32,657 bases of DNA from Caldisericum sp. (GCA_020692945.1 JAIMJY010000008.1:1-32657); one strand, 5' to 3'; shown: positions 3,269-17,343, numbered from the stretch's first letter. Notes: a model not told the origin generated them from the sequence alone. Program-made: numbers and translations.

Positions 3269-3586
3269 ATGAAAAAGTTTATTTGGATAGTGGCTGTAAT
3301 TGTCATTTGCATATTTGGGGTTTACTTTTGGCTTACCCAATCAGAGAATGGAAACCATAAGTCAATAGCTAATGCTGGTGAAAATCAACTTGTAAATTTT
3401 GGAAACACTGTTCAATTAGATAGGAGTGGAAGTAGAGATAAAGATAAAGATGGGAATACATTGGTATATATGTGGAGTTTTATATCTACTCCAGAAGGTT
3501 CGACGGCAATGCTTTCTGAACAAGAGATTGATTTTTTTCATCGGCAAGAACCTTTATCCCATAATAGAATATCCTTTCTCTCTTAA
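3269..3586 (+). pseudogene. Truncated PKD-type surface protein fragment
   Basis: The 105-residue reading frame starts with a signal peptide or signal anchor (KKFIWIVAVIVICIFGVYFW, residues 2-21), preceded by GAAGGA as ribosome-binding site. Residues 35-82 look like the first half of a PKD or Ig-like domain of the type found in bacterial surface proteins: ANAGENQLVNFGNTVQLD, then SGS, D-rich turn, LVYMWSF and EGSTAMLS. After AMLS the expected second half of the fold is absent. The sequence continues as an unrelated tail ending FLS at 3586. Usual proteins of this type carry many such domains. I infer a gene cut off by recombination or decay at about 3530, still able to make a short anchored peptide. 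Confidence 0.6.
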
Positions 3587-3867
3587 TTCTTTAATTTTTA
3601 TCAATTGTTCATTGTTCATTTTCACTACCCCTGTTAGAATGTTCCAAGTGGAGCATGGCCAACAAGTTGCAAAACATAGGCCTATTTCGAGAGATTTTTA
3701 TCCTGGTGATGGGGGGGTTTTACCTCCAGAGGGTAACTTGTTTGTTTTAGGGGCATTTCCGTTGAAATTATGGGGTATTTTATGAAAGACTTCTGATTCA
3801 TTTCAAAGATTTGTAAAATTTAATAAAATTATTGTTGAGTGAAAAAAATTGCTTAATTTAGGTGAAT
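3587..3867. other. Non-coding stretch after the PKD fragment
   Basis: I see no convincing gene here. It contains a G7 run (about 3713-3719) and an AT-rich end. The minus strand (about 3622-3560) encodes a short stretch, MNNEQLIKIKELREKGYS, that resembles the start of a helix-turn-helix protein. It stops after three more residues and lacks a ribosome-binding site, so it is at most a remnant. The last 25 bases share sequence with the leader at 2643. Confidence 0.4.
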
Positions 3868-3905
3868 AATATTATCCAGAGTCTCAGATGTATGTAACGC
3901 GTACA
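3868..3905 (+). repeat. 38-bp direct repeat, copy B
   Basis: Partner of 131-168 (36 of 38 identical). It ends five bases before the TTGACA box at 3911, the position where an activator or repressor site would sit. It could be the operator of the peptide operon, or the right-hand junction of an inserted segment. Confidence 0.7.
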
Positions 3906-3910
3906 GGGTA

Positions 3911-3938
3911 TTGACAAGCAACAAAAATTTGTTATAGT
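3911..3938 (+). promoter_or_regulatory. Sigma70-type promoter of the peptide operon
   Basis: TTGACA (3911-3916), a 16-base spacer and TATAGT (3933-3938) give a near-consensus promoter about 50 bases before the precursor ATG. It is one of the best promoters in the window, fitting strong expression of a small peptide. It lies directly downstream of the 38-bp repeat. Confidence 0.7.
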
Positions 3939-3987
3939 TCAATAAAGTAAGTAATAATGCAATTTGCAAAAAAAGGAGGTAAAAAAA

Positions 3988-4158
3988 ATGAACAAAGAAA
4001 CTGTGCAATTACAAAACGATCAATTAGAGAAGATGGAGAAGGAGTTGTTGAAGAAGCTTCTTCAGGAAGGTGGAGAAGAAATAGATAATGAGTTGGCTCG
4101 AGAAATGGGAGAGTATACATGTAACGGTCCCTCTGCTCCACGTCGAATGTTGCGTTAA
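3988..4158 (+). CDS. Candidate RiPP precursor peptide (56 aa)
   Basis: ATG 3988 follows a perfect AAGGAGGT (3973-3980) with seven A residues between, so the earlier in-frame start is rejected. The peptide has a Glu/Lys/Leu-rich amphipathic leader (about residues 4-27), a Gly-Gly at 28-29 that resembles a double-glycine cleavage site, and a C-terminal segment with the only Cys (C45), the only Tyr (Y43), two Pro and three Arg: GEYTCNGPSAPRRMLR (41-56). The next gene downstream is a radical-SAM/SPASM enzyme with a PqqD-like domain, the usual partner of such precursors. By family logic the product would be a modified peptide; plausible targets are the Cys (thioether) or Glu42/Tyr43 (C-C link). 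The modification itself cannot be read from sequence. No homologue is recognised by eye. Confidence 0.7.
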   Translation: MNKETVQLQNDQLEKMEKELLKKLLQEGGEEIDNELAREMGEYTCNGPSAPRRMLR

Positions 4159-4312
4159 GTCAGTTCAAGAGGTGGCAAAATACTTCTGGAAAAAATATGC
4201 TTCTTTCTGAAGTGTAGTAAGTGTTAAGAATTGCGGTAGGAATTGGACTAACATGTTCGGAAATGACACTCTGGTAATAGGGGCGAGGTTTAAGTGTATT
4301 TTAAATTATGTG

Positions 4313-4337
4313 AGGAGAAAGTGAAGGTAATTCTCCT
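4313..4337 (+). promoter_or_regulatory. Hairpin between precursor and maturase genes
   Basis: AGGAGAA (4313-4319) pairs with TTCTCCT (4331-4337) over an 11-base loop. It sits in the 219-base gap between peptide and maturase and has no strong T-tract. A partial attenuator or mRNA-stability element that makes precursor outnumber enzyme is plausible, as in other RiPP operons. A weaker ACTTC/GAAGT pair lies at 4182-4213. Confidence 0.4.
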
Positions 4338-4377
4338 GGGTTTCTGTTTGTTATCTCTATAAAGATGGTAAGCGCGA

Positions 4378-5736
4378 ATGAGGAAAGAGGCTTTGGGTTT
4401 TAAATTGCGTCTTCCTGCGTTTCCGGAATGGATTCGATATAGACAAGAAACAAGCAATATTATAACAATAATGAATCTTAAGACAAACCGTATTTATTCT
4501 GTTAAAGATCCATTTGGTATAGATATCAAAATGTTGTCTCTTTTATCAAAAGGCAATGTTTCACTAGAAGAATTATTCGTAGCATTAGGAGTAAGGAAAC
4601 AAGCAATAGCGTTATTTGTAATTAGATTCTATCGAACAGTACTTCAAAAAGTTATTAATATTAATGAAAAAGAAAGTGATGTTTTTACTGCAAGTGAGAT
4701 TTCAACACTTAAGTTGCCGAATTTAACTGCGCCTTTAGCCATAGAATTACTTGTGACTTACCAATGTAATTCACACTGTAGACATTGTCTAGTAGGAGAC
4801 TACAGATATTCGAAGGACAGCAACATGCCTTTAGAGTATATTAAAAGAATTGCTTACCAAGCTCATGAATCCGGTGTTTATAAAATAATACTTACTGGTG
4901 GCGAACCAATGGCTAGGGAAGATTTTTTCGATGTCATGGATATTCTTAGTGTTGTACCAACCATAGAAATCGCTACAAATGGATTATTGTTAAATGAAAA
5001 TATTGTAAAAAGACTAAATGAATACCCCGTGAGTCGTTATATAGTCTCATTAGAAGGTGCATCTGCTCAGACTCATGACTTTATTCGAGGTAAAGGATCG
5101 TTCACAAAAACAGTAAAAGGTATCGAGAACCTCAAAAAATTCTCTAAAGCATATGGTGTAGCAGCTAAGGTTACTTGTGGTAAACACAATATCTTTGAAA
5201 TAGAGAAGATCATTAATCTTTGCATTAACTTGGGTATAGAAGCTGTAGAGTTCGGGAGGTTAAACCCTTGGGGGTGGGGAAAAGCATTGGCTGACTATTG
5301 TATTTCGGGAAAAGAGCTGTTTGAATTAGATCAAACAATAAAAGAAATGAAGGAAAAGTATAAAGATAGCATTATAATTGAGGGTAATGCTTTATCTCCT
5401 CAATTCCGAAATAGTTGTGGCATAGGAGCAGGTGTTGCTATTCAACCAAATGGAAATGTATTACCTTGCCGGATTTTTGAACTGGCTCCTACAGAGGAAG
5501 TTATCCTTGGAAATATAGCTAAACAAAATTTGTTAGAGATTTGGAATTCGACGAAAGCAAATAATATTAAAAATTATGCGGATAATATGGAGAGGAGTAC
5601 TATTACTTGTAAGATGTGTGAATTTTATAATTTATGCTCTTATCCACACTGTTTAGCTCGAGCTTTTATATCTTCTCCTAATCTGCCACTTCAAGAAGCT
5701 ACAAAGTTGCTAAAATGCCCTGGAGAACCACGTTGA
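4378..5736 (+). CDS. Radical SAM/SPASM peptide maturase with PqqD-like domain
   Basis: The N-terminal 100 residues resemble a PqqD-type RiPP recognition element, which would bind the precursor leader. The radical-SAM core has C130-x3-C134-x2-C137 (the [4Fe-4S]/SAM site) and GGEP at 174-177. The C-terminal SPASM region has C347, GNVLPC ending at C364, then C411-x2-C414-x5-C420-x4-C425 and C447, enough to ligate two auxiliary clusters; the x4 and the last spacing deviate slightly from the usual SPASM pattern. At 452 residues it is of normal length for PqqE/AlbA/anSME-like maturases. The start has only a weak ribosome-binding site, but a stop lies three codons upstream and no better start exists. 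Role inferred: installs a radical-made crosslink in the upstream 56-residue peptide. Confidence 0.85.
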   Translation: MRKEALGFKLRLPAFPEWIRYRQETSNIITIMNLKTNRIYSVKDPFGIDIKMLSLLSKGNVSLEELFVALGVRKQAIALFVIRFYRTVLQKVININEKESDVFTASEISTLKLPNLTAPLAIELLVTYQCNSHCRHCLVGDYRYSKDSNMPLEYIKRIAYQAHESGVYKIILTGGEPMAREDFFDVMDILSVVPTIEIATNGLLLNENIVKRLNEYPVSRYIVSLEGASAQTHDFIRGKGSFTKTVKGIENLKKFSKAYGVAAKVTCGKHNIFEIEKIINLCINLGIEAVEFGRLNPWGWGKALADYCISGKELFELDQTIKEMKEKYKDSIIIEGNALSPQFRNSCGIGAGVAIQPNGNVLPCRIFELAPTEEVILGNIAKQNLLEIWNSTKANNIKNYADNMERSTITCKMCEFYNLCSYPHCLARAFISSPNLPLQEATKLLKCPGEPR

Positions 5737-5739
5737 GAA

Positions 5740-5845
5740 ATGAAAAAGGCCTTTTTATAAGGAAGTATTTAGGCATCGATATTTCCGGAAGGAAAATAAA
5801 ACGGAAATAAGCCATCGCTTTAAATTCTTCTATTTAACAAGTCTA
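5740..5845 (+). other. Out-of-frame N-terminus of the MFS transporter
   Basis: ATG 5740 begins four bases after the maturase stop but reads only MKKAFL before TAA at 5758. Skipping one base in the T5 run (5752-5756) joins it to an uninterrupted frame. That frame reads basic residues and then SHRFKFFYLTSLLLAVVSS, a typical MFS cytoplasmic start plus first helix, continuing into the transporter. Between 5744 and 5846 the transporter frame has no ATG, GTG or TTG. So either a one-base indel or a +1 shift at TTTTT is needed for a full protein. Confidence 0.55.
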
Positions 5846-7027
5846 TTGTTGGCGGTTGTGTCGTCTCTAACGGGACCATTCTGGGTAGTTTACTTTAATC
5901 AGGTTGGTCTTAAGTATCTTGAGATCTCTATGCTCATTATAGCCAATCATGCTATAACCTTAGCATTCGAAATTCCTACGGGTATAATAGCTGATCTCTG
6001 GGGAAGAAAAATCTCTGTAATAATCTCCCTCTTGCTCTCAAGTGTAGCTTCTATAGGAATATTTTTTGGGAGAACATTCCCCCAGTTTCTTCTATTTTTT
6101 ATCATAAGTGGAATAGGAGCAACTTTCATGTCAGGAGCATACGATGCCTGGTTTTTTGATAGCCTAACTTTAACTGCAAAAGAAGAAGGAAAAGAGATAA
6201 ACATAGAAGACTACTGGGGACGCTTATCAAGCGGCCAACAGTTAGGTAGTTTGCTTGGATTTCTTTTAGGTACAGTTGTAGTATTGGCCTACCACTTGAG
6301 AGTCCTCTGGTTAATGGAAGGATTGGGTGCTCTTTCCATATTTCTTTATATCCTTATTGTAGGAAAGGAAGAAAAACATGCAAGGCAAAGCATGTCGACA
6401 ACGAAAAGTTATAAGCATTTTATCATTGAAGGCTCGTCCTATCTTTTTAAAAGTAAATTACTCACTTTCTTAGTTTTGGGTTCCCTTTTCTGGTTTTTTA
6501 GCACTGGAATTCTTTCACTTGCCTGGCAGCCATTTTTTAAAGCACAAGGAATTGACCCAAAGTATTTCGGTATCATTCTAACGGGATATATGATTCTGAG
6601 TATTTTTGTTGTGAGGAAAGCAGGTATCCTATCCAAGAAATTGGGTAGTGATCTAAGACTACTTCAATTGGTTGGAGTCATCTGCGCTGTCCTTACTGTT
6701 TCTTTCATTTTCGCTTCCGGTTACCAATGGATTCTCTTTATACTCTACGGCGGCATCTATTCTCTACATGATCCAATATTTCAAGCACACTTGAACAAGT
6801 ATATTCCTTCCCCACAAAGAGCGACTATATTATCAACTTATAATATGTCTATTAGCACAGTGACAATTCTCAGTACGTTTATTTTTGGTGTAGTATCTGA
6901 TAAATTTGGTTTAAGTATGTCTATAGTTATTTCCTCAATTGTGTGCTTTGTTACTGTAATTATTTTTAAAGTTGTAGCACTGCTTGAAAAGAGCAGTACT
7001 ACAAAAACCCAAAAAGAAAGTGGGTGA
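5846..7027 (+). CDS. MFS transporter, probable RiPP exporter (N-terminus frameshifted)
   Basis: About 393 residues are readable from TTG 5846, with 11-12 hydrophobic helices. The MFS motif A loop is visible between helices 2 and 3 (GIIADLWGRK, about residues 46-55), together with FEIPTG before it, a common feature of drug-efflux type MFS proteins. TTG 5846 lies inside the first helix and has no ribosome-binding site, so the true start is probably the frameshifted ATG 5740 (see that entry). If the shift is real the gene may be inactive or subject to slippage. Its position between the maturase and the peptidase suggests export of, or immunity to, the modified peptide. A general drug exporter captured by the operon is the alternative. 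Confidence 0.75.
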   Translation: MLAVVSSLTGPFWVVYFNQVGLKYLEISMLIIANHAITLAFEIPTGIIADLWGRKISVIISLLLSSVASIGIFFGRTFPQFLLFFIISGIGATFMSGAYDAWFFDSLTLTAKEEGKEINIEDYWGRLSSGQQLGSLLGFLLGTVVVLAYHLRVLWLMEGLGALSIFLYILIVGKEEKHARQSMSTTKSYKHFIIEGSSYLFKSKLLTFLVLGSLFWFFSTGILSLAWQPFFKAQGIDPKYFGIILTGYMILSIFVVRKAGILSKKLGSDLRLLQLVGVICAVLTVSFIFASGYQWILFILYGGIYSLHDPIFQAHLNKYIPSPQRATILSTYNMSISTVTILSTFIFGVVSDKFGLSMSIVISSIVCFVTVIIFKVVALLEKSSTTKTQKESG

Positions 7028-7041
7028 AGAAAGGAGAATTA

Positions 7042-8226
7042 ATGGATAAGGTCCTTTTTAGTAGTAGAATCGTCTTGTATTACCCGCCTGATTTACCTGA
7101 AGACAAAATTAAACTGCTTTTGAGTAAAGAAGAGAAATCTTTAAAGCAAGTTGAAGAGATTTTTAAAATCCAGTATCCAGATAAACCAAGGATTTTTATT
7201 CGTATAGCCCCTTTTAATATGTCTTGGACAGATTCAGAAGGTATTCACTATTCTGCTCCGTCTTCTGAATTCCAGAAACTTACCGAGGAGAAATATGACA
7301 CTTATTTAGGGAGACTCCATGAATGGAGTCACTTTTTGGCGTTAAACTTACTCTGCCAAGAGAGGCACATAAAGCCACCGTCCTTCTTTCTTATAGAGGG
7401 ATTAGCAACGGCAGTAGATGCTTTAATTAATGCAAAATATAGAACGAACCTTCATTTAACAGCTAAAGGATTACTCAAGCTTGGCAAACTTAAACAAGTC
7501 ACCGAAATTTCTAATAGAGATTTTCTTACCCTTACCATTAACGAAGCAGGTTCTTTTACATCATTCTTATTAGAATACTTTGGAATTGAAAAATTGAAAG
7601 AAGTATACCGATATATCAACGACGAAGAAAAGTTTAATAACCATTTTGAGCGAATATACGGGAAATCCATTTCTTTTTTTGAAGAAAAATGGAAAGCATT
7701 TCTGAATTCTTTCTTACAAGATGAAAATCAAAGAGCACAGTATGTTGCTTATGCATCTTTAGGTCTAGATCAGATGCACCCTTTCGTTCTAGAATGCGAA
7801 AAATTCTGGATATCACAAGGTTTTAGGGACCTTCCTGACAAAATACTCAAAAAAGAGGAGGCGTTTTATGAAGCTTTCTTTAACTTATCGCAAACTTCTG
7901 AACTTGAATATGCATATAAAACCTTTTGTAGAGCTATAGACGACTTTCGCGTCTATTTAGAAAAGCGTCAAAAGAGCATAAAGGCTTTTAGTGAAGCTAA
8001 ATTACTTATCACACAACATAAGTGTTATGATTCAATTCAAGACTTATTGAAATATTCTTTATCTTTAGCTCTTGACATAGAAGACCTCGAAGTAGTTACC
8101 AAAGTATCTCATTATATAGATATTATTAAGTTGTTAAGAAAAGTACGAGAAGCTCATGGATACAATGAAAAAAGAAAACTCCTAAAAGAGGCAGAGAAAA
8201 AGATAATGTTATACAAAGAGAGATAA
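7042..8226 (+). CDS. Gluzincin metallopeptidase (peptidase-MA-like), RiPP operon
   Basis: Start ATG 7042 follows AAGGAG by five bases; an in-frame GTG at 7024 has no such site. In the 394-residue product the zinc site is H93-E-W-S-H97 with a second-zone Glu in IEGLA (E119), 22 residues later. Next comes a helix reading GSFTSFLLEYFGIEKLKEVY, the pattern seen in peptidase MA-like proteins. No signal peptide or membrane segment is seen, so it should be cytoplasmic. The C-terminal 150 residues are helical and charged, without a recognised domain. The gene overlaps or abuts its neighbours (upstream stop at 7027, 5 bases to the next gene). Inferred role: leader removal from the modified precursor, or peptide turnover and self-protection. 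Confidence 0.75.
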   Translation: MDKVLFSSRIVLYYPPDLPEDKIKLLLSKEEKSLKQVEEIFKIQYPDKPRIFIRIAPFNMSWTDSEGIHYSAPSSEFQKLTEEKYDTYLGRLHEWSHFLALNLLCQERHIKPPSFFLIEGLATAVDALINAKYRTNLHLTAKGLLKLGKLKQVTEISNRDFLTLTINEAGSFTSFLLEYFGIEKLKEVYRYINDEEKFNNHFERIYGKSISFFEEKWKAFLNSFLQDENQRAQYVAYASLGLDQMHPFVLECEKFWISQGFRDLPDKILKKEEAFYEAFFNLSQTSELEYAYKTFCRAIDDFRVYLEKRQKSIKAFSEAKLLITQHKCYDSIQDLLKYSLSLALDIEDLEVVTKVSHYIDIIKLLRKVREAHGYNEKRKLLKEAEKKIMLYKER

Positions 8227-8231
8227 GAAAC

Positions 8232-9833
8232 ATGGATAATTATGAAAGTATTAATCATGTTGCATGGACAGAACCTCGAATTCAATTCATAAAACAACAA
8301 TTGGAAAGTCTTCTTAAGGTTGTAGACTTGGAGAGTAAGGGTAAAGTAGTAGAAATAGATGGTTTCCGCTTGAAAGAACTGTCTATGTGGCGAAGTTCTC
8401 TACCTCAAGGTATTTTAGATAACTTTGGAACTCTTTCAAGTGTATGCAACTGCAATTGTGAATTTTGCTATGAACGCGGACTATCGAAAATAAGTAATGA
8501 GCTTGTCTTCTTCCCTAGAAGGTCTATGTTAACGTTACAAGAAGCTAAAACAAGAGCTAAATATTATGATCCAGAAACCCAAACTGGACTATTCATTACA
8601 GCAGCTGATTCTCTGGAACCAACCCTTAACCCTTATTGGCTTGATATTTTACGCATTGCTCGAGAAAAATGTCCAACCGAAACTCTGGGTCTTCCTACTA
8701 CTAATGGAACTAAATTGACAGAGGAAGTCATTAAACAACTATCTGAATTAAAACCTATTACAGTCAGCATTTCCTTACTTAGTATTAACCCTTTAACCCG
8801 AAAACAGTTGATGCACGATCCCAATCCTGAAATCGCTATTCAAAGTATCACTCTATTGAGGAAATATGGAATACCATTTAAAGTAGGTATTGTTGCCTGG
8901 CCTACAATACCTATCAACGAGATTAAAGAGACCATAAAATATGCAGACCACTATGATGCACTTGAAATAGAAATCCAACTGCCAGGTTTTACAAAATTTG
9001 GATTTGAAGCCCCTCCGTTTAATACCAAGCAACAATGGGATAGCATTGTAAATATTGTACAATCGATGAGATTACAGATTCAAACACTGCTTTACACAAG
9101 TCCATATACGTATGAAGTTAATGGAGATCCTTCTGCAGTTGTGGTTGGCACTGTTAAAAACTCACCTGCAGCTAATACAGATCTACACATCGGTGACAGA
9201 ATTTTAGAAATTAATGGAAAGAAAGTATTCACACGCTCTTATTGCAATGACTTGCTAAGAAAAACTTCAGAAGGACTATTGCACATAAAAATATTGAGAA
9301 ATAAGGAAATTAGGAAGATAACAATCGTTTGTAATCAACAAGATAAAGAGAAAGACTTGTATCCCTATAAACCAGCCAATTACTCTATTGATCCGCTTCT
9401 TCATCATGGTATTTTTATGCCAGACTCTTTTAGATTAGAATACATAATTCAAATAGAAGGTATTATTAAAAATTATAATGCAAAAAATGTACTCATTTTT
9501 TCCTCTAAATTAATTTCTCCTTATTTTAAGAAAATTTTACAGGTGTTCAAAAGGCAAGGTCATTTCAAAAATGTGAAAATATACGTTGAGACACCACAAA
9601 ATAATTTTTGGGGTGGAAACATTTGCATAGGTGATCTATTAACGGTTAGTGATTACATAGATTGCATTGAAGAATTTTTACTGAAGAGAAAGGTTAGGCC
9701 TGATCTTTTGCTTATTCCCTGCTCAGGTTTTAGCAATTGGGGAAGAGATATAACTGGCAGAAGCTTTTTAGAAATCGAGCGACGATTTAATATTCCTGTA
9801 GATTTAATAAAATCCTTAGTTATTTGGAGGTAA
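8232..9833 (+). CDS. Radical SAM protein with internal PDZ and DUF512-like C-terminus
   Basis: In this 533-residue protein, residues 15-55 form a small N-terminal module that recurs in the next ORF. The radical-SAM site is C72-N-C-N-C76-E-F-C79 (CxxxCxxC plus an extra C74), followed by an (alpha/beta) barrel to about 280. Residues 290-370 form a PDZ domain (VVVGTVKNSPA, HIGDRILEINGKKV). The C-terminal part (about 390-533) resembles the end of DUF512 proteins: NNFWGGNICIGDLL, DLLLIPCSGF and FNIPVDLI. Classical DUF512 proteins carry the PDZ first, so the order here looks permuted. It is the second radical-SAM enzyme of the operon. PDZ domains bind peptide C-termini, so it may dock the modified peptide; this is inference. 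No SPASM cysteines are seen. Confidence 0.75.
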   Translation: MDNYESINHVAWTEPRIQFIKQQLESLLKVVDLESKGKVVEIDGFRLKELSMWRSSLPQGILDNFGTLSSVCNCNCEFCYERGLSKISNELVFFPRRSMLTLQEAKTRAKYYDPETQTGLFITAADSLEPTLNPYWLDILRIAREKCPTETLGLPTTNGTKLTEEVIKQLSELKPITVSISLLSINPLTRKQLMHDPNPEIAIQSITLLRKYGIPFKVGIVAWPTIPINEIKETIKYADHYDALEIEIQLPGFTKFGFEAPPFNTKQQWDSIVNIVQSMRLQIQTLLYTSPYTYEVNGDPSAVVVGTVKNSPAANTDLHIGDRILEINGKKVFTRSYCNDLLRKTSEGLLHIKILRNKEIRKITIVCNQQDKEKDLYPYKPANYSIDPLLHHGIFMPDSFRLEYIIQIEGIIKNYNAKNVLIFSSKLISPYFKKILQVFKRQGHFKNVKIYVETPQNNFWGGNICIGDLLTVSDYIDCIEEFLLKRKVRPDLLLIPCSGFSNWGRDITGRSFLEIERRFNIPVDLIKSLVIWR

Positions 9834-9837
9834 GAAA

Positions 9838-10065
9838 ATGCAAAATTCTGACGAATTTATATGGCATTATAAAATTGACTACAAGCCTACAGAAGAAGCA
9901 TTATATGATGATCCTATAGTAGAAATGATTCGAACAGAGATACAAAATCTTCTGCAGATAGTCGTTTTGACAAAAGATGGCACTCGCGTACAAATTAACG
10001 GTTTTAAGTTCCACAAAGCTCTCGTTACTGGTAAAGAAGATGTCGAGTACAAAATATGGGGTTAG
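9838..10065 (+). CDS. 75-aa paralogue of the N-terminal module of the PDZ radical-SAM protein
   Basis: The start follows GGAGG in the end of the upstream gene, with a four-base gap. Residues 25-62 align with residues 15-52 of the preceding enzyme: both have P, I, a helix with LLxxV, a Lys/Gly turn, then V-x-I-x-GF and a Leu. The Cys motif is absent. The same frame continues after TAG 10063 for 25 more codons (NDPMVEILGISMPGYLN...), and NDPMVEI echoes DDPIVEM inside the protein. It may be a stand-alone accessory or adaptor module, a truncated duplicate of the enzyme, or part of a longer gene broken by the TAG. A good ribosome-binding site favours translation. Confidence 0.6.
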   Translation: MQNSDEFIWHYKIDYKPTEEALYDDPIVEMIRTEIQNLLQIVVLTKDGTRVQINGFKFHKALVTGKEDVEYKIWG

Positions 10066-10066
10066 A

Positions 10067-10129
10067 ATGACCCAATGGTAGAAATCCTCGGTATTTCAAT
10101 GCCGGGCTATCTTAACATAGACGGGTCAT
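10067..10129 (+). other. Stem-loop structure at the end of the peptide operon
   Basis: ATGACCC (10067-10073) pairs with GGGTCAT (10123-10129). Inside lies a second hairpin around CGGTATT...AATGCCG (10089-10104). No T-tract follows. It may be a 3' stabilising structure, an end of mobile DNA, or a structured RNA element. It begins one base after the TAG stop of the 75-residue gene. Confidence 0.4.
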
Positions 10130-10235
10130 CGTATATTATATAGGTGTAGTAATTAGGTTATGTGGAGAACATATCTTTTGCTATACTTGGTCTGTACGGT
10201 TAAAGGTATGGGGGAAAGTGGGTAAATTATATCCG

Positions 10236-10258
10236 TATTCTGAAATTGTTTCAGGATA
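10236..10258. repeat. Dispersed palindrome, copy 1 (CTGAAA-TTG-TTTCAG)
   Basis: A 6-bp stem extends by three further pairs after a mismatch (TAT/ATA). The core CTGAA-x-TTGTTTCAGGA recurs at 11122-11139. This sequence type is familiar as an intergenic REP-like palindrome in many bacterial genomes. Confidence 0.5.
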
Positions 10259-10312
10259 CAAAAGTAAGGTAAGGCACTCCCCAAGGTACAAAGAGGGAGG
10301 ATACATTGAAAG

Positions 10313-10337
10313 AATCTGCTAAAGAAGATCGCAGATT
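10313..10337. repeat. Hairpin repeat, copy B (AATCTGC...GCAGATT)
   Basis: Same 7-bp stem as at 2-25, with an 11-base loop and the same TACA after it. It lies 120 bases before the transposase remnant, where the 5' non-coding end of an IS110-type element would be. Confidence 0.45.
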
Positions 10338-10387
10338 ACAAAGAATACTATAAATAAGTACCTTGAAAAAGAAGCATAAAATGGTAA

Positions 10388-10435
10388 GATGACCTCGAAA
10401 TAGAAGTAGATAAAAATTAAAGGAAGGAGGTCATC
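10388..10435 (+). promoter_or_regulatory. Hairpin sequestering the transposase ribosome-binding site
   Basis: GATGACCTC (10388-10396) is a perfect 9-bp complement of GAGGTCATC (10427-10435), with a 30-base loop. The 3' arm contains the end of GGAAGGAGG, so folding would hide the Shine-Dalgarno site. Such sequestering hairpins protect insertion sequences from read-through transcription. Confidence 0.5.
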
Positions 10436-10456
10436 AAGACGAATTATAATCAAAAA

Positions 10457-10581
10457 ATGGAAGAGATGAAAGGAGTAAAAGTATTTGTAGGGATAAATAT
10501 TGGGAAAGATAAGCTGTTGCACCTGTAAAGGACCTGCAAAAAAGAGTTATTGCAAATAAGGAGGCTATAGAAATAGTATGA
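10457..10581 (+). mobile_element. Decayed N-terminus of an IS110-family transposase
   Basis: ATG 10457 reads MEEMKGVKVFVGINIGKDK, close to the conserved start of IS110/IS1111 DEDD transposases, where the first catalytic Asp is in G-I-D. Here it is Asn, so the catalytic residue is lost. The frame stops at 10526. Shifting frame at about 10515 recovers VAPVKDLQKRVIANKEAIEIV, which plausibly continues the same domain until TGA 10579. Nothing recognisable as the rest of the roughly 300-400-residue enzyme follows. The remnant ends exactly at the ATGA that starts the next gene. This is a dead fragment; the upstream 130-250 bases may be the old non-coding (bridge-RNA) end. Confidence 0.55.
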
Positions 10582-11126
10582 AAAAAAATAGAGTGGTAAT
10601 TTTGCTGGAAGTCGGATTGCTTATCGCATTAGCGTTGCGGTATGCTAAAGTATTCAACATTAAGTTGTTGCCTAACTTTGAAATCATAACTTTTATGTTT
10701 GTGTATATTACAACAGTTCTGAATCGAGAGACCTATCATAAAAAGGTCAACTTGTATTTTCTGATAGTATTGTTTATGGTTTTAGGGCTTGGAGTTCCAA
10801 AGTTAGATTGGGTTAATCTAATCCCATTTGTTACTTATGGGGTTATAATTATCTCGATTAACCTGTTTAGCAGGAAGAGGTTATTTTTAAGGACTCTGTA
10901 TTCAGTTGCAGTTTTCTTTATTGTCTCAAACTTTCTATTCTGGTTATTCGAGCCCTGGCAAATGTATTCAAAGAATTTCATGGGTTTATTGCTATGTTAT
11001 ATGGGGGCTTTGCCATTCTTAAAAAATCAGCTAATTTCTAATTTAACCGCCTCGGTTGTTTTTAGTTTAGTCCTGAGCGGTAAGTTTTTTGAGGTAGAAA
11101 GTGAAAGAGCATCAGAAACATCCTGA
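10578..11126 (+). CDS. Integral membrane protein, DUF6580-like
   Basis: This 182-residue protein has about five hydrophobic segments (roughly 7-25, 33-48, 57-75, 82-98 and 107-125, with more towards the C-terminus). A pattern resembling small DUF6580-type membrane proteins is visible in SNFLFWLF and MGALPFLKNQL (about residues 115-155); this family call is from memory and moderate. The start ATG overlaps the stop of the IS110 remnant (ATGA). AAGGAGG lies 13 bases upstream, which is rather far, so an upstream or alternative start is possible. The last residues (ESERASETS) run into a REP-like palindrome, so the C-terminus may have been altered. Function unknown; a small-molecule uptake role is speculative. 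Confidence 0.6.
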   Translation: MKKNRVVILLEVGLLIALALRYAKVFNIKLLPNFEIITFMFVYITTVLNRETYHKKVNLYFLIVLFMVLGLGVPKLDWVNLIPFVTYGVIIISINLFSRKRLFLRTLYSVAVFFIVSNFLFWLFEPWQMYSKNFMGLLLCYMGALPFLKNQLISNLTASVVFSLVLSGKFFEVESERASETS

Positions 11127-11643: not shown

Positions 11644-12819
11644 ATGAATACAATTATTTATTTGGATAATGCTTCAACAACACCTACTGATAAAAGGGTT
11701 ATTAAGAAAATGCTTCCTTTTTTCAGCGAGAATTTTGCAAATCCTGCCACAAAGTGGACTTCTTCGTTGAGTAAATTGGTTGACGAGGAAGTAGAGCAAG
11801 CTCGGCTGAATATTGCAAAACTACTTGGAGCAGACCCTGACGAAATATTTTTTACGTCTGGCGGTACAGAATCTGACAACACTGCCCTCAAAGGTATAGC
11901 ATTCAAGCATCATGATAGAGGAAACGAAATCATTTCGATACCCATTGAACACGAGGCTGTTTTAAAATCATTGGAAACGCTTGAGGGCTTTGGTTTTAAA
12001 ATTAAATTCGCAAGAGTAGATAGTAAAGGTTTTGTTGATCCTGAAGAGATTAAAAGGTTGATTACCAAGAAAACAATTCTTGTTTCAATAATGCACGCAA
12101 ACAATGAAATAGGGACGATCGAACCAATTGAGGAAATTGGGAAAATCTGTAGAGAAAGAGATATTTATTTTCATACAGATGCAGTCCAAACAGTGGGGCA
12201 TATTCCAATAAATGTAAAATCGTTTAACGTTGATTTACTCAGTCTTTCTGCACATAAATTTTATGGCCCGAAAGGTGTGGGAGCCATTTATGTAAGAAAA
12301 GGTGTTAAAGTTAAACCTTTTATGGATGGTGGTGGTCAGGAGAAAGGAATAAGGTCAGGCACGCTTAATACAACCGGAATAATTGGCCTTGGGGAAGCTG
12401 CAAGGCTTGCAAGTGAAGAAATGGAGCAGACTGAGAGTGATGTTAAAAAAATGAGAGATTTACTGTGGGATAAAATTCAAAAACAGATTCCTAAAGTTTA
12501 TTTAAATGGCGCAGAAATTGATAGCAGACTCTCTAATAACCTCAACATTATAATAAAAGGAATAAGAAATGAACCCCTGCTTGTTGCACTAAACGAGAGA
12601 GGAGTTATTGCAGGTGGAGGTTCAGCATGTGCGGCAGGAAGCAAGTACCCTTCGCATGTATTGAAATCAATAGGCGTGAAAGATAATGATATTTTTGGTG
12701 CTTTGAGGATTACTATTGGTAAGTTTAACAAAATTGAATACGTTGATTATGTTGTTCAAAGCCTAAATGAAATTGTTAATTCTCTCAGGGATTTGAGTCC
12801 TTTCTGGGAAGGAGAATAA
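11644..12819 (+). CDS. Cysteine desulfurase, NifS/IscS type (first copy)
   Basis: This PLP enzyme takes sulfur from cysteine as a persulfide, leaving alanine. The 391 residues match the NifS/IscS length. Visible motifs are YLDNASTTP at the N-terminus, the cofactor-binding region HANNEIGTIEPIEEI and HTDAVQT, the PLP lysine in SAHKFYGPKG, the GIRSGTLNTTG segment, and the catalytic Cys in GGSACAAGSKYPSH on the mobile loop. A GAGGAGGT site precedes the ATG. It is the first gene of the island, one base before the degenerate IscU-like gene, so the pair probably works together. A second desulfurase lies 2 kb downstream. Use for Fe-S clusters, thiolation or cysteine-derived sulfur transfer cannot be separated by sequence alone. 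Confidence 0.93.
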   Translation: MNTIIYLDNASTTPTDKRVIKKMLPFFSENFANPATKWTSSLSKLVDEEVEQARLNIAKLLGADPDEIFFTSGGTESDNTALKGIAFKHHDRGNEIISIPIEHEAVLKSLETLEGFGFKIKFARVDSKGFVDPEEIKRLITKKTILVSIMHANNEIGTIEPIEEIGKICRERDIYFHTDAVQTVGHIPINVKSFNVDLLSLSAHKFYGPKGVGAIYVRKGVKVKPFMDGGGQEKGIRSGTLNTTGIIGLGEAARLASEEMEQTESDVKKMRDLLWDKIQKQIPKVYLNGAEIDSRLSNNLNIIIKGIRNEPLLVALNERGVIAGGGSACAAGSKYPSHVLKSIGVKDNDIFGALRITIGKFNKIEYVDYVVQSLNEIVNSLRDLSPFWEGE

Positions 12820-12820
12820 G

Positions 12821-13168
12821 ATGTATCCTAAAATTATCATTGAGCATTTCATGCATCCTAAAAATGTTGGACGCCTTGAGAATCCATCAAACATCGGTAC
12901 TTACGAGACGCTTTCAAAAGCGAAAGCGGTTTTTTATTTTCTTATTGAAGATGATATTGTGAAAGATATAAAATACCAGGTTGCAGGATGCCCATATGCA
13001 ATTGCTGTTGGCTCGATTCTTTCAGAATATGCAAAGGGGAAGCGTATTTTTGAACTTGCGAAAATCAACAAAAAATTTTTAGAAAAATATTTTCCAGTTG
13101 ACGAAGATAAAGAAGAGTGCATAAATCTGCCGCTTAGAGCTTTTTTGAACGGTCTCAGTAAGATTTAG
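12821..13168 (+). CDS. Degenerate IscU/NifU-like scaffold protein
   Basis: The N-terminus (YPKIIIEHFMHPKNVGRLENPS) is that of IscU/NifU scaffolds. The product has 115 residues. Of the three cluster-ligand cysteines, two have counterparts: the one in QVAGCPYAIAVGS (usually FGCxxAIASSS) and the one in EECINLPL (usually HCSxLAxDA). The first, normally in GSPACGD together with the key Asp, is gone; the region reads YETLSKAKAV. The intact paralogue is at 14684. It may be a cluster-carrier or regulatory variant, a dedicated partner of the adjacent desulfurase, or a decaying copy. The frame is clean and has a ribosome-binding site (GGAAGGAG), arguing for expression. Confidence 0.75.
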   Translation: MYPKIIIEHFMHPKNVGRLENPSNIGTYETLSKAKAVFYFLIEDDIVKDIKYQVAGCPYAIAVGSILSEYAKGKRIFELAKINKKFLEKYFPVDEDKEECINLPLRAFLNGLSKI

Positions 13169-13174
13169 AGGTAG

Positions 13175-13203
13175 TTGCAAAATATTACTTCTTTAGTTAT
13201 AAT
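13175..13203 (+). promoter_or_regulatory. Internal promoter before the DUF59 gene
   Basis: TTGCAA (13175-13180), 17 bases, TATAAT (13198-13203), followed within seven bases by the ribosome-binding site AGGAGG. This would give a separate transcript starting at the SufT-like gene. Confidence 0.55.
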
Positions 13204-13219
13204 TAAATAGGAGGAAAAA

Positions 13220-13525
13220 ATGGTAACAAAAGAAGAAGTGCTGGATGCTTTAAAAAATGTTTATGACCCTGAGATACCAGTTGATATTGTTGCCTTAGGG
13301 CTGATTTATAAATTGGAAATTAACGAAGAGTCAGGCGCTGTAAAGATTCTAATGACTCTAACTGCTCCAGGTTGTCCGATGGGGAATTACATTGTAAGCG
13401 ATGCTGAGATGGTTGTGAAAGCGCTTGAAGGCGTTAAAGACGTCCAAATTGAAATTACCTACGATCCACCCTGGTCCCCTGAAATGATAAGTGAAGAGTC
13501 AAAAAAGGAGCTTGGTTATTCATGA
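13220..13525 (+). CDS. DUF59 / MIP18-family (SufT-like) Fe-S assembly protein
   Basis: This single-domain 101-residue protein has the family hallmarks NVYDPEIPVDIVALGLIYKL near the N-terminus, the reactive Cys in LTAPGCPMG (about residue 53) and ITYDPPWSPEMISEE near the end. Relatives (SufT, PaaD, eukaryotic MIP18) help in maturation of Fe-S proteins. The stop overlaps the start of the second desulfurase (ATGA), so translation is coupled. A homologous DUF59-like domain is also fused to the scaffold gene at 14684. It is more likely a general Fe-S maturation factor than the phenylacetate PaaD, since no paa genes are near. Confidence 0.88.
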   Translation: MVTKEEVLDALKNVYDPEIPVDIVALGLIYKLEINEESGAVKILMTLTAPGCPMGNYIVSDAEMVVKALEGVKDVQIEITYDPPWSPEMISEESKKELGYS

Positions 13526-14679
13526 GAGTTTATTTCGATAATGCCGCCTCAACGAGAACAGACGAAAGAGTTATTGAGGCAATGCTTCCATACTTTACTG
13601 AAAAATATGCCATACCTACTTCGCAATTTTCTCATTCTTTTGGAGTAGAGGTAAGCGATGCAATTAGTCTTTCGAGGCAAACAATAGCTTCTCACGTTGG
13701 AGCAAGCGATGCGGAAGAAATAATTTTTACATCATCGGGAACCGAGGCTAACAACCTTGCAATAAAAGGAGTTGCATATGCGAATTCCAATAGTGGGAAA
13801 CATTTAATTACTTCTCAGGTTGAGCATCTTTCAGTTTTAGAATCCATGAGAAAACTTGAACAAGAAGGATTTGAGGTTACCTACCTTCCAGTTGATAGCT
13901 CAGGGTTTATTGACATAGACAAGCTAAAACTCTCCCTTAGAGATGACACAATACTTGTTTCTGTCCAGCTTGCAAACCATGAAACTGGTACCTTACAGAA
14001 TTTTGAGGAAATTGCAAATATCGTTAAAGGCAAAGGCGTTTTATTGCATACTGATGCAGCAATTTCGTACCCATACATTAATATATCTGCCGATAGATTT
14101 CCTGTCGATCTTATGACTATTTCGCCTCATAAATTCTATGGACCAAAAGGTATTGGAATTCTGTATGTGAAGAAGGGAACGAAGATAACAAAACTTATAG
14201 ACGGAGGCTTTAATGAGTTTAACATTAGGGCGGGATCGGAAAACGTTCCGGGAATTGTAGGAGCAGCCAAAGCGGTAGAAATATTTGATTACAAGGACGT
14301 TGAAAAAATCCATAAGTTAAAAGGACTCCTTGTCCGAAGAATCGAACAAGAGATTAGCGACGTTGAACTAAATGGGAGCAGAAATAATGCATTGCCTCAG
14401 ATTGCAAACTATACATTCAGTTACATCGAAGGGGAATCCGTATCTCTGAGGCTTGACTTTGAGGGAATTGCAGTAACAACAGGTTCAGCATGCTACAGCA
14501 GGAACTTACAGGCAAGCTATATACTTATTGCGATGGGAAAAAGTCACGAACAGGCACATGGTTCAATTCGTTTTTCGCTCTCAAAGTATAATACAGAGGA
14601 AGAAATTAACTATACCGTTGATAAATTGGCTGAAATAGTTGAGGACTTGCGGAAACTCAGTCCGTTAGGAAAGGAGTGA
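13522..14679 (+). CDS. Cysteine desulfurase, NifS/IscS type (second copy)
   Basis: A 385-residue paralogue of the gene at 11644. Motifs are YFDNAASTRTD, EHLSVLES, NHETGTLQNFEEI, HTDAAISYP, the PLP lysine in SPHKFYGPKG, FNIRAGSENVPG, and the catalytic Cys in TTGSACYSRNLQ. Members of this family that act with IscU have such a flexible Cys loop. It overlaps the DUF59 gene by four bases and lies four bases before the intact IscU-type scaffold, so this copy is the likely partner for Fe-S assembly. The two copies differ clearly in loop and neighbour sequence, suggesting separate jobs rather than a recent duplication. Confidence 0.93.
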   Translation: MRVYFDNAASTRTDERVIEAMLPYFTEKYAIPTSQFSHSFGVEVSDAISLSRQTIASHVGASDAEEIIFTSSGTEANNLAIKGVAYANSNSGKHLITSQVEHLSVLESMRKLEQEGFEVTYLPVDSSGFIDIDKLKLSLRDDTILVSVQLANHETGTLQNFEEIANIVKGKGVLLHTDAAISYPYINISADRFPVDLMTISPHKFYGPKGIGILYVKKGTKITKLIDGGFNEFNIRAGSENVPGIVGAAKAVEIFDYKDVEKIHKLKGLLVRRIEQEISDVELNGSRNNALPQIANYTFSYIEGESVSLRLDFEGIAVTTGSACYSRNLQASYILIAMGKSHEQAHGSIRFSLSKYNTEEEINYTVDKLAEIVEDLRKLSPLGKE

Positions 14680-14683
14680 TATT

Positions 14684-15319
14684 ATGCCTACACCATATAC
14701 CAAGCTTGTAATCGAGCATTTTAAAAATCCCCATAATGTTGGTGAGATTGAAAATCCTGATGTGAAGGTTACGGAAGGTAGCCCTGCGTGCGGGGACATG
14801 CTCACTTTGTATTTAAAGGTCGATCCAGTTACTCATAAAATAACAGATATTAAGTTCAAATCATTTGGCTGTGCATCAAATATTGCAACGGGTTCGATAA
14901 TTACAGATCTTGTAGCAGGGAAAACGGTCGAGGAAGCCCTAAAGATTACCTGGAAAGATGCAGCAGAAGCACTTGGTGGTTTACCTCCCGTAAAAATTCA
15001 TTGTTCGGTCCTTGCAGCAGATGCGCTACATTCAGCAGTTGAAATTTATATGGAAAAGGAAGGACTCGTAAAAGAGAAAAATCCGACTAAAATGGAAACG
15101 GTTTTTCAGAAGCTTACACATGTTATAGACCCAAACACGGGTGTTGATATCGTTAAATCTAAAATCATTAAAGGCGTTAAAATTGAAAATGGAATCATTT
15201 TCATCGAAGTTGATCTCAAGGAGAATGACCAGTTTGCAGCTAATGTTAAGGAAGAAATCCTTGAGAGGCTTGGATATCTTTGGGATATTAAGGAAGTGAA
15301 GGTTAGTTTTTCAAAATGA
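14684..15319 (+). CDS. IscU-type scaffold fused to a DUF59-like domain
   Basis: Residues 1-130 form a complete IscU: EHFKNPHNVGEIENPD, the first ligand Cys and Asp in GSPACGDML, the second Cys in FGCASNIATGS, and the third in KIHCSVLAADAL. Residues about 140-211 form a second domain (FQKLTHVIDPNTGVDIVKSKIIKG...VKVSF) with the DP-x-x-G-x-DIV pattern of DUF59/MIP18 proteins, but without the usual Cys. Common IscU proteins end near residue 130, so this is a fusion. It follows the second desulfurase by four bases (ribosome-binding site AAGGAG) and overlaps the sulfur-carrier gene by four. It probably builds the nascent cluster and, through the second domain, passes it on. Confidence 0.85.
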   Translation: MPTPYTKLVIEHFKNPHNVGEIENPDVKVTEGSPACGDMLTLYLKVDPVTHKITDIKFKSFGCASNIATGSIITDLVAGKTVEEALKITWKDAAEALGGLPPVKIHCSVLAADALHSAVEIYMEKEGLVKEKNPTKMETVFQKLTHVIDPNTGVDIVKSKIIKGVKIENGIIFIEVDLKENDQFAANVKEEILERLGYLWDIKEVKVSFSK

Positions 15320-15540
15320 AAGTTAAAGTTAAGCTTTACGGAGATTTTTTACGACAAGGACCTGAAGAAAGTATTGTTGAGCTTCAAGATGGCTCTACTG
15401 TTGAGGAACTTCTTAAACACTTTGAAATTTCTGAAAGAAATTATATAATAATCCTTGTAAATTTAAAGCGTTCATGGTTTGAGGGAGCGCTAAAAGACGG
15501 TGACACAGTTAGTATTTTTTCACCTGTAGGAGGAGGATAA
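15316..15540 (+). CDS. ThiS/MoaD-like sulfur carrier protein
   Basis: A 74-residue ubiquitin-fold protein: KVKVKLYGDFLRQGPEE start, central VEELLKHF helix and the C-terminal tail FSPVGGG. The terminal Gly-Gly is where an E1-like enzyme forms the acyl-adenylate and then the thiocarboxylate. The ATG overlaps the scaffold stop. The likely activator (ThiF/MoeB-like) lies at 17344 and a cysteine synthase between, so this may feed sulfur to cysteine synthesis as CysO does in mycobacteria. A role in molybdopterin or thiamine synthesis is possible, but no moa or thi genes lie nearby. The last residue is an extra Gly; such a tail could need trimming or may be used directly. Confidence 0.82.
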   Translation: MKVKVKLYGDFLRQGPEESIVELQDGSTVEELLKHFEISERNYIIILVNLKRSWFEGALKDGDTVSIFSPVGGG

Positions 15541-15565
15541 ATTTAAAACAAAGGAGGCTTAATAA

Positions 15566-15655
15566 ATGAAAAACAATCAAGGAGGATTTTATGGTTGTAA
15601 TAAGAGAACTTCTCCAGGAAATAAAAAAAGACTTGGAAGTCTATTCAAAAAATGA
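15566..15655 (+). CDS. Possible 29-aa leader ORF overlapping cysE
   Basis: AAAGGAGG (15550-15556) precedes ATG 15566. The frame reads MKNNQGGFYGCNKRTSPGNK, then a basic end, and stops at 15655, well inside cysE. The cysE ribosome-binding site is embedded in its GGA GGA codons. Its own strong ribosome-binding site suggests translation. It may couple to or regulate cysE, but could also be chance. Confidence 0.3.
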   Translation: MKNNQGGFYGCNKRTSPGNKKRLGSLFKK

Positions 15656-16118
15656 TCCAGCAATTGAGAACAAATGGGATATTTTCTTTTCGGTGTCATT
15701 CAGAGGTTTAGTTTGGTACAGAATTTATCATAAGCTCTATCAGAGAGACCATAAATTAATAGCTAAATATTTATATTTTAGAACAAAACTCAAATATCAA
15801 ATGGATATCCACCCCAAAGCAGAGATTGAACCAGGAGTAATGATTGACCACGGAAATGGAGTTGTCATTGGTTCAACGGCTTTCATAGGAAGCGGCACAA
15901 TAATTTATCACGGGGTTACGCTTGGCTCAAGAAGGATTACGAGTGGAAAGCGGCACCCAACTATTGGTAGAAATTGCTTTATTGGAAACCATGCCTCGAT
16001 CCTTGGTAATATAAACATAGGTAACAATGTAAAAATTGGGGCAAACTGTGTAGTACTCACCGATATTCCAGATAATTCTACAGTCGTAGGAATACCAGGT
16101 AGAATTTTAAAAACATAA
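15591..16118 (+). CDS. cysE: Serine O-acetyltransferase
   Basis: Makes O-acetylserine from serine and acetyl-CoA, the acceptor for sulfide or thiocarboxylate in cysteine synthesis. The 175 residues are a short form compared with about 270 in enterobacteria, like the compact SATs of many Gram-positives and thermophiles. The left-handed beta-helix hexapeptide repeats run from about residue 75 (GVMIDHGNGVVIGSTAFIG, IIYHGVTLG, PTIGRNCFIGNHASILG, VKIGANCVVL) with the catalytic His in MIDHGNG and the typical GIPGRI end. The start follows AAGGAGG seven bases upstream. It is 10 bases upstream of cysteine synthase, so the two are cotranscribed. Confidence 0.92.
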   Translation: MVVIRELLQEIKKDLEVYSKNDPAIENKWDIFFSVSFRGLVWYRIYHKLYQRDHKLIAKYLYFRTKLKYQMDIHPKAEIEPGVMIDHGNGVVIGSTAFIGSGTIIYHGVTLGSRRITSGKRHPTIGRNCFIGNHASILGNINIGNNVKIGANCVVLTDIPDNSTVVGIPGRILKT

Positions 16119-16128
16119 GGAGGATAAA

Positions 16129-17022
16129 ATGGTAGATGTTGTTGGTATAATTGGCAATACACCGATTGTTGAATTGAGACAAAACAAGAATATCTTTCTA
16201 AAACTTGAACTTCTTAATCCAGGCGGAAGCGTAAAAGATAGAATTGCATATTTCATGGTCAAAGATGCTATCGAAAGAAATATGCTCAAGGAAGGCGATA
16301 CTATAGTAGAACCAACCTCAGGAAATACAGGTATATCCCTTGCCATGGTTAGTAAAACTTTCGGAATTAAAGTAATTCTTACAATGCCTGACTCACTGAG
16401 CAAAGAAAGAATTTCATTAATGGAAGCTTATGGAGCTCTTGTAATTCTCACAGAAGGGGCGAAAAGAATGGATGGAGCAATTGAAAAAGCTCACGAATTG
16501 ATTGAAACAGGAAAAGCAAAATTAATGTTACAACAGTTTGAAAATCCTGCAAATCCATTAGCTCATGAACTAACAACAGGACCTGAAATATTACGACAAA
16601 TGAACTATGATGTAGATGCTTTTGTAGCTGGCGTTGGAACCGGAGGAACGATAACAGGAGTTGCAAGAATTGTCAAAAAATTTATTAGAAACATTAAAAT
16701 CTTTGCTGTTGAGCCTTCTCAATCCCCTGTTCTTTCTCACGGAAAGCCTGGTTCTCATACAATTGAAGGTATAGGAGCAGGTTTTATTCCCAAAGTTTTA
16801 GATTTGAAACTTATAGATGATGTTATTTGTATCGATCAAGACGAGGCAAGGCAGGCTGCAAGAGAACTTGCAAGAGAAGAAGGAATATTTGCGGGACCAT
16901 CCTCTGGCGCTAATATTCTGGGAGCCCGGTTAGTTTCGGAAAAATACAACTTTAAAAGAGTATTAACGATCGCTCCCGATAGAGGTGAAAGATATTTATC
17001 TGAAAACCTGTTTACTCCCTGA
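16129..17022 (+). CDS. Cysteine synthase (O-acetylserine sulfhydrylase family)
   Basis: A PLP beta-replacement enzyme of 297 residues. The PLP lysine is in NPGGSVKDRIAYFM (about residue 35), the substrate loop is EPTSGNTGISLA, the phosphate cradle is GVGTGGTITGVAR, and GPSSGAN lies near the C-terminus. It joins O-acetylserine with a sulfur donor to give cysteine. The neighbours cysE upstream and the ThiS-like carrier fit this. Whether it uses free sulfide (CysK) or a carrier thiocarboxylate (CysM/CysO system) is not visible from motifs; the nearby carrier and E1-like genes raise the second option. A ribosome-binding site AAGGAGG lies five bases before ATG. No N- or C-terminal CBS-type domain is present. 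Confidence 0.9.
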   Translation: MVDVVGIIGNTPIVELRQNKNIFLKLELLNPGGSVKDRIAYFMVKDAIERNMLKEGDTIVEPTSGNTGISLAMVSKTFGIKVILTMPDSLSKERISLMEAYGALVILTEGAKRMDGAIEKAHELIETGKAKLMLQQFENPANPLAHELTTGPEILRQMNYDVDAFVAGVGTGGTITGVARIVKKFIRNIKIFAVEPSQSPVLSHGKPGSHTIEGIGAGFIPKVLDLKLIDDVICIDQDEARQAARELAREEGIFAGPSSGANILGARLVSEKYNFKRVLTIAPDRGERYLSENLFTP

Positions 17023-17120
17023 AGATCCTTCTTCTTCTCAGTAGTCAAAGGAAGGTTACCTTCTGTACCTAAAACTTTAAAAGACAAGAGATCGTTTAAA
17101 AGTTTTGCAAGGAATACTAT

Positions 17121-17148
17121 TTGAAAGAAAATGAAAAAAATATAAAAT
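17121..17148 (+). promoter_or_regulatory. Promoter before the YHS gene
   Basis: TTGAAA (17121-17126), 16 bases, TAAAAT (17143-17148), then the ribosome-binding site GGAGG about 9 bases on. The 143-base gap after cysteine synthase supports a second transcript for YHS-thiF. Confidence 0.45.
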
Positions 17149-17165
17149 AAAGCTGGAGGTGAATT

Positions 17166-17342
17166 ATGGTACAAGACCCTGTTTGTAAAATGATCCTTGA
17201 GAAAGATGAAGCAAAGGCGACCGTTGAGTACAACGGAGAAATGTATTACTTCTGTTCGCTTCACTGCAAAGAAGAATTTGTTAAGGATACCGAGAAGTAT
17301 ATTTCCAAAAAGCAAAAACGACCAGAAAGTTCAGGATGTTAA
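17166..17342 (+). CDS. YHS-domain (TRASH-like) metal-binding protein
   Basis: A 58-residue protein. The start follows GGAGGTGAATT. Residues 4-9 DPVCKM, then YNGEMYYFCSLHCKEEF at about 22-37, define a YHS domain: C7, C30 and C34 are the metal ligands. The tail is basic and ends SSGC, adding a fourth Cys at the end. Such small domains bind soft metals such as copper, or iron. The stop lies one base before the ThiF/MoeB start, so the two are likely cotranslated. A role in metal or sulfur handling for the island is inferred from position. Confidence 0.85.
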   Translation: MVQDPVCKMILEKDEAKATVEYNGEMYYFCSLHCKEEFVKDTEKYISKKQKRPESSGC

Positions 17343-17343
17343 A

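Follow-up and report, generated by a model that had tools for sequence, protein, structure and literature searches.

Proteusins and some other ribosomally synthesized and post-translationally modified peptides (RiPPs) are C-methylated by class-1 B12 radical S-adenosylmethionine (SAM) enzymes that carry an N-terminal Rossmann B12 domain. The pyrroloquinoline quinone (PQQ) and mycofactocin systems share a plan of a short peptide, a SPASM radical-SAM enzyme and a peptidase. Class-2 cobalamin-dependent radical-SAM enzymes include the DUF512 proteins and Mmp10 (PMC11659888, PMC13331322, PMC8828468). A 2024 study showed cobalamin binding by four DUF512 proteins, which also turn it into methylcobalamin; both solved structures place a leucine beneath the corrin, and an aromatic residue lies between their cluster and the cobalamin (PMC11659888). 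About 6,000 DUF512 sequences are known, and which substrates DUF512 enzymes act on is an open question (PMC11659888, PMC13331322). Here we describe a locus of Caldisericum sp. (GCA_020692945.1, JAIMJY010000008.1:1-32657) in which a DUF512 enzyme lies in what may be a RiPP operon. The window is the whole stretch of 32,657 nucleotides that was analysed, and all positions are counted along it.

We observed six open reading frames (ORFs), all on the (+) strand, encoding a 56-residue peptide, a first radical-SAM enzyme (rSAM1), a major facilitator superfamily (MFS) exporter, a gluzincin-type peptidase, a second radical-SAM enzyme (rSAM2) and a 75-residue module. The gene order and the domain families were computed, and they bear out the sequence-only reading, which had placed six same-direction genes at these positions. 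The peptide gene is separated from rSAM1 by 219 nucleotides, and rSAM1 from the first listed MFS start by 109 nucleotides. From the MFS gene onward the gaps are 14 (MFS to peptidase), 5 (peptidase to rSAM2) and 4 nucleotides (rSAM2 to module), matching the 4-14 bases claimed earlier. We consider, with a probability of about 45%, that the 56-residue precursor is turned into a modified peptide by this operon in a RiPP-type pathway.

The candidate precursor (MNKETVQLQNDQLEKMEKELLKKLLQEGGEEIDNELAREMGEYTCNGPSAPRRMLR; 3988 to 4158, + strand) has an AGGAGG ribosome site directly 5' of its ATG. It had been described as strongly promoted, and this agrees with a promoter-like site on the + strand at 3911 to 3938 (TTGACA-16-TATAGT, with a TG before the -10), which is an 11/12 sigma-70 match and the only one within 3550-10600; sites of this quality are expected by chance at about 0.7 per strand in the whole window. 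The N-terminus of the peptide is helical, acidic and leader-like, and the C-terminus is basic. A short candidate precursor gene with a promoter and a ribosome site is thus found ahead of a SPASM radical-SAM gene, as is characteristic of RiPP clusters. Sactipeptides and ranthipeptides have several core cysteines for thioethers; with a single cysteine in its entire length, this precursor fits neither class. A structured leader between the peptide and rSAM1 genes was considered and rejected (z = -0.98), and an Rfam scan of the window found no element and no cobalamin riboswitch.

The enzyme rSAM2 (8232 to 9833, + strand) consists of an N-terminal module, a radical-SAM core with the cluster motif CNCNCEFCY, a PDZ domain and a DUF512 domain. 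The second radical-SAM enzyme with a PDZ domain was confirmed, as Radical_SAM, PDZ_2 and DUF512 all scored above their Pfam gathering scores. The PDZ domain (residues 299-365; 9126 to 9326, +) scored 36.6 bits, and the predicted cobalamin-binding DUF512 domain (9396 to 9830, +) scored 29.5 bits against a cut-off of 25. A structure model was built from 11 relatives (mean predicted local distance difference test score 65), and the top Foldseek matches of this computed fold in the PDB were both DUF512 crystal structures (9cg1 and 9cg2) and Mmp10 (7qbs). The family profile also matched 9cg1 and 9cg2 by sequence, 9cg2 weakly in a domain-only search.

Like the DUF512 proteins and Mmp10, rSAM2 has a CX3CX2C cluster, a C-terminal DUF512 fold, an axial leucine and an aromatic residue after the third cysteine. 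The leucine is L469; it is invariant in nine aligned sequences and falls on the axial Leu366 of csDUF512 (9cg1). The aromatic residue, Y80, comes right after the third cluster cysteine, like F95/Y47/Y23. Thr323 of csDUF512, which holds the cobalamin tail, aligns one residue off Ser424/Ser425 of rSAM2, in a region where the alignment is weak. The cluster motif with a C-terminal DUF512 and the leucine for the corrin position are features of class 2. Since DUF512 binds cobalamin and the top structural matches are DUF512 structures and Mmp10, rSAM2 most likely belongs to the class-2 cobalamin-dependent radical-SAM methylases. The sequence-only reading had missed the cobalamin-binding nature of DUF512, and with it the predicted chemistry becomes radical methylation. 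Like csDUF512, rSAM2 carries a PDZ domain; unlike csDUF512 (PDZ-rSAM-DUF512), the domain is not N-terminal and sits between the radical-SAM core and DUF512, and no DDD motif follows the cluster motif. Judged by this domain order, rSAM2 has a different architecture and stands outside the PDZ-DUF512 subgroup of csDUF512. It further differs from the DUF512 proteins and Mmp10 in its extra N-terminal module, in a second copy of this module as a separate gene, and in having a peptide gene in its operon. Viperin-like defence proteins were also considered and rejected, as the PADLOC matches reflected just the common radical-SAM core.

The separate copy is the 75-residue partner module (9838 to 10065, + strand). 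It had been called a small paralogue of the rSAM2 N-terminus. A direct comparison of the two gave no visible likeness (E = 3.8), and the claim is backed by the family profile, which finds the enzyme N-termini of the rSAM2 homologues at L010, L077 and L078 with E values of about 1e-7 to 1e-8. Because the module profile matches enzyme N-termini, the module is duplicated and present in both enzyme and partner. The computed profile showed that this second copy is conserved, fused or as a neighbouring gene, at every full-length close rSAM2 homologue that was read. It is a separate gene just upstream of the enzyme at L010, L077-L080 and L085, and downstream of it at L011, L015 and in the window. It is fused to the enzyme N-terminus at L012-L014, L016, L017, L081-L084, L086, L087 and the incomplete L018 and L020. 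The profile found no match in the incomplete L019 or in a distant Sinorhizobium protein (L030), and DUF512-type proteins of this phylum that are less closely related (L005-L009) lack the module.

The first enzyme, rSAM1 (4378 to 5736, + strand), had been called a radical-SAM/SPASM peptide maturase, and both Pfam domains scored above cut-off (Radical_SAM 84 bits, SPASM 41.5 bits). Its cluster motif reads CNSHCRHC. Like the SPASM RiPP maturases (the SkfB, PqqE, AlbA and WgkB models), it has the radical-SAM core, a seven-cysteine SPASM pattern at the C-terminus and a short peptide gene upstream. The solved structures nearest by sequence include SkfB (6e-12) and PqqE (2e-9), both peptide maturases. 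Among NCBIfam models the mycofactocin (4e-31) and PqqE (1e-27) models matched, and since every match was far below its cut-off, no named maturase family fits rSAM1. From its sequence, rSAM1 is a SPASM radical-SAM maturase and distant kin of SkfB and PqqE. It differs from the SPASM RiPP maturases in falling under every equivalog cut-off, and its operon differs in a single-cysteine precursor and in lacking a demonstrable RiPP recognition element (RRE). No close rSAM1 homologue was present in the 386 genomes searched; the best match (L031, 33% identity) has a 75-residue precursor-like ORF upstream, and this locus shows the same plan, not orthology. No rSAM1 homologues were found in viral contigs, and matches in plasmids were at the ordinary superfamily level only.

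The remaining two genes encode the exporter and the peptidase. The presence of an MFS gene (+ strand) was upheld by a score of 95 bits against MFS_1; the gene runs from the first listed start at 5846 to 7027, and its nearest NCBIfam model is TetA(P), far below that model's cut-off. The frame is open well 5' of the TTG at 5846, which is its first ATG/GTG/TTG, and membrane helix 1 begins upstream of it. The true start is probably upstream of 5846, and as no canonical start is found there, an unusual start codon or an assembly error would account for it; for the stretch 5738-5846 a frameshift is a further candidate cause. The peptidase (7042 to 8226, + strand) has HEWSH at 7318-7332 followed by EGLA, that is, the HExxH and downstream glutamate of gluzincins, and no apparent signal peptide, in keeping with the cytoplasmic HEWSH peptidase proposed earlier. 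It scored 26 bits against Peptidase_MA_2, below the cut-off of 32.4, and its long C-terminal half matches nothing. Apart from one weak local match, no full-length relative was found in 195 genomes, and no homologues were found in plasmids or viral contigs.

In the proposed pathway, rSAM1 would act first, making a radical modification within the C-terminal portion of the precursor. rSAM2 and the 75-residue module would then add one or more carbon-bound methyl groups by a class-2 cobalamin mechanism as in Mmp10, in which SAM would methylate cob(I)alamin, a second SAM would be the source of the 5'-deoxyadenosyl radical, and the methyl group would pass to the substrate radical. The polypeptide substrate may be held by the module and the PDZ domain. 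Leader removal by the gluzincin would take place in the cytoplasm and be followed by export of the product through the MFS protein. The domain assignments are solid; the 56-residue peptide is our inferred substrate on the strength of gene order and of those rSAM2 relatives that are linked to peptides, and the order of the steps, the methylation, the leader cleavage and the export are likewise predictions. The product would also bear radical C-methyl groups, like the RiPPs methylated by class-1 enzymes; unlike the N-terminal Rossmann domain of those enzymes, the B12 domain of rSAM2 is predicted to be of the C-terminal DUF512 type.

Several results weigh against a RiPP-type operon. The majority of about twenty close rSAM2 relatives lie in acyl-CoA-mutase or electron-transfer-flavoprotein operons, and beside these relatives we found no homologues of the gluzincin, the MFS protein or rSAM1. 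Neither the phylum (54 genomes) nor the 386 genomes screened with rSAM1 yielded a second whole operon. In this genome, neither a PF02310 protein above the cut-off nor NrdJ was found (cobalamin uptake was not searched). The PqqD-like domain that the sequence-only reading had placed on rSAM1 was not confirmed, as the N-terminal ~110 residues gave no Pfam match, and an hhalign comparison with seven PqqD-type sequences, which gave the expected register, scored inside the range of shuffled controls; no RRE is therefore demonstrable. The model of the 75-residue module is a low-confidence helix plus strands with no PDB match. As no second operon, no PF02310 protein above cut-off and no class II ribonucleotide reductase turned up, the RiPP reading is probable rather than proven.

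The relatives of rSAM2 also raise the strongest alternative, in which the peptide, rSAM1, the peptidase and the MFS protein form the RiPP part, and rSAM2 and its module are mere neighbours that act on some other cellular protein, such as an enzyme of the acyl-CoA kind or one like it. At 11 loci (L012, L014, L016, L017, L018, L020 and L083-L087) the relatives lie beside or between genes for methylmalonyl-CoA-mutase large subunits. Most of these loci include a gene for the B12-binding small subunit, and often genes for enoyl-CoA hydratase and CoA-transferase; the L012 mutase protein scored 457 bits against Pfam MM_CoA_mutase. At L081 and L082, an rSAM2 homologue with a fused module is flanked by EtfAB/FixC-type genes directly upstream and by hydantoinase-like genes downstream. 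However, the window has no mutase or other acyl-CoA gene, and the peptidase, rSAM2 and module genes are coupled by gaps of 5 and 4 nucleotides, so that we regard this separation as rather unlikely. A small peptide-derived molecule made in the PQQ or mycofactocin manner, in which the peptidase excises a short modified stretch of the precursor for export as a redox factor or metallophore, is improbable. The short peptide, SPASM enzyme and peptidase do match that plan, rSAM1 does match the mycofactocin and PqqE models, and an MFS protein is an exporter of the kind used for small molecules rather than a peptide ABC transporter. Yet the equivalog cut-offs were missed widely, the other genes of those pathways are lacking in the window, and the precursor has neither a PQQ nor a mycofactocin precursor ending. 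The operon further differs from PQQ and mycofactocin in its peptidase family, its cobalamin-type second radical-SAM enzyme and its MFS exporter.

We see equally little chance that the 56-residue ORF is an ordinary small protein and that the radical enzymes, peptidase and exporter serve substrates made elsewhere. The peptide has no homologue that we could find and is 219 nucleotides away from rSAM1, but it has the region's best promoter, a strong ribosome site, a fitting size and position, and the same strand. The locus is still best read as a RiPP-type operon, with a weaker link between the PDZ/DUF512 enzyme and RiPPs than the sequence-only reading had implied. Here rSAM2 and its module lie beside a candidate precursor; because most relatives are in acyl-CoA operons and two others are with a Tat-signal peptide, rSAM2 and its module are not RiPP-specific.

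The latter two relatives, at L011 (Armatimonadota) and L015 (Deltaproteobacteria UBA5329), have a gene for a Tat-signal peptide of 120-130 residues between the enzyme and the module (11696-12058 and 11685-12077, respectively). These candidate substrates share 32% identity and a conserved end (EWS/TWS). In the tree, rSAM2 of the window groups with L011 and L015 on a moderately supported branch (85/82). We tentatively suggest, with more doubt than conviction, that an Mmp10-type class-2 methylase acts in a RiPP pathway and that the rSAM-PDZ-DUF512 family with its duplicated module consists of polypeptide modifiers whose substrates are encoded adjacently: the precursor in this operon, the Tat-signal peptides at the Armatimonadota and UBA5329 loci, and perhaps the acyl-CoA mutases at others. 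The operon and these relatives supply specific candidate substrates for DUF512 enzymes, chiefly the 56-residue peptide. If this is true, Mmp10-type C-methylation joins the RiPP toolkit, and the locus hints at roles for the PDZ domain and the small partner protein. Every part is of a known kind; in the papers searched, we found no description of a peptide operon whose DUF512 enzyme has a mid-protein PDZ domain and a duplicated module, in line with the earlier remark that the combination could not be matched to a named class.

The close rSAM2 form occurred only in this genome among the 54 of the phylum, and no close relatives of rSAM1 or the gluzincin were found in the sampled genomes. This distribution suggests an acquired operon or at the least a very uncommon one, although base composition does not set the locus apart as foreign.

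A number of further observations were made on the relatives and the flanking DNA. The rSAM-PDZ-DUF512 proteins of the mutase loci come from several phyla (L012 7116-8924, L014 9743-11572, L016 9692-11572, L017 9554-11545), and one speculation is that the mutase undergoes an Mmp10-like modification. At L011, hypC- and hypD-like genes follow. A distant rSAM-PDZ homologue on plasmid pSJ05684b of Sinorhizobium sojae (L030, 9001-10530) lies near genes for a B12-binding-type radical-SAM enzyme and a methyltransferase, possibly a biosynthetic cluster; the collection carries no annotation for it. At L005, L007, L008 and L009, which represent another family in the same phylum, a DUF512-like radical-SAM gene adjoins the tRNA threonylcarbamoyl gene tsaD.

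Upstream of the operon, an ORF with a PKD-like domain (3269-3586) ends abruptly and is perhaps a truncated gene at the operon edge. Downstream, a 36-nucleotide stretch with an inverted repeat (10311-10347) has six further copies in the genome at 86-93% identity. A 23-codon ORF at 10457-10528 (MEEMKGVKVFVGINIGKDKLLHL) resembles by eye the start of an IS110-type transposase, has no Pfam match, and could be where an insertion ends. Beyond it lies a sulfur-assembly block (11644-18111) with two NifS-like cysteine desulfurase genes and genes for NifU-like, serine acetyltransferase, cysteine synthase and MoeB/ThiF-like proteins.

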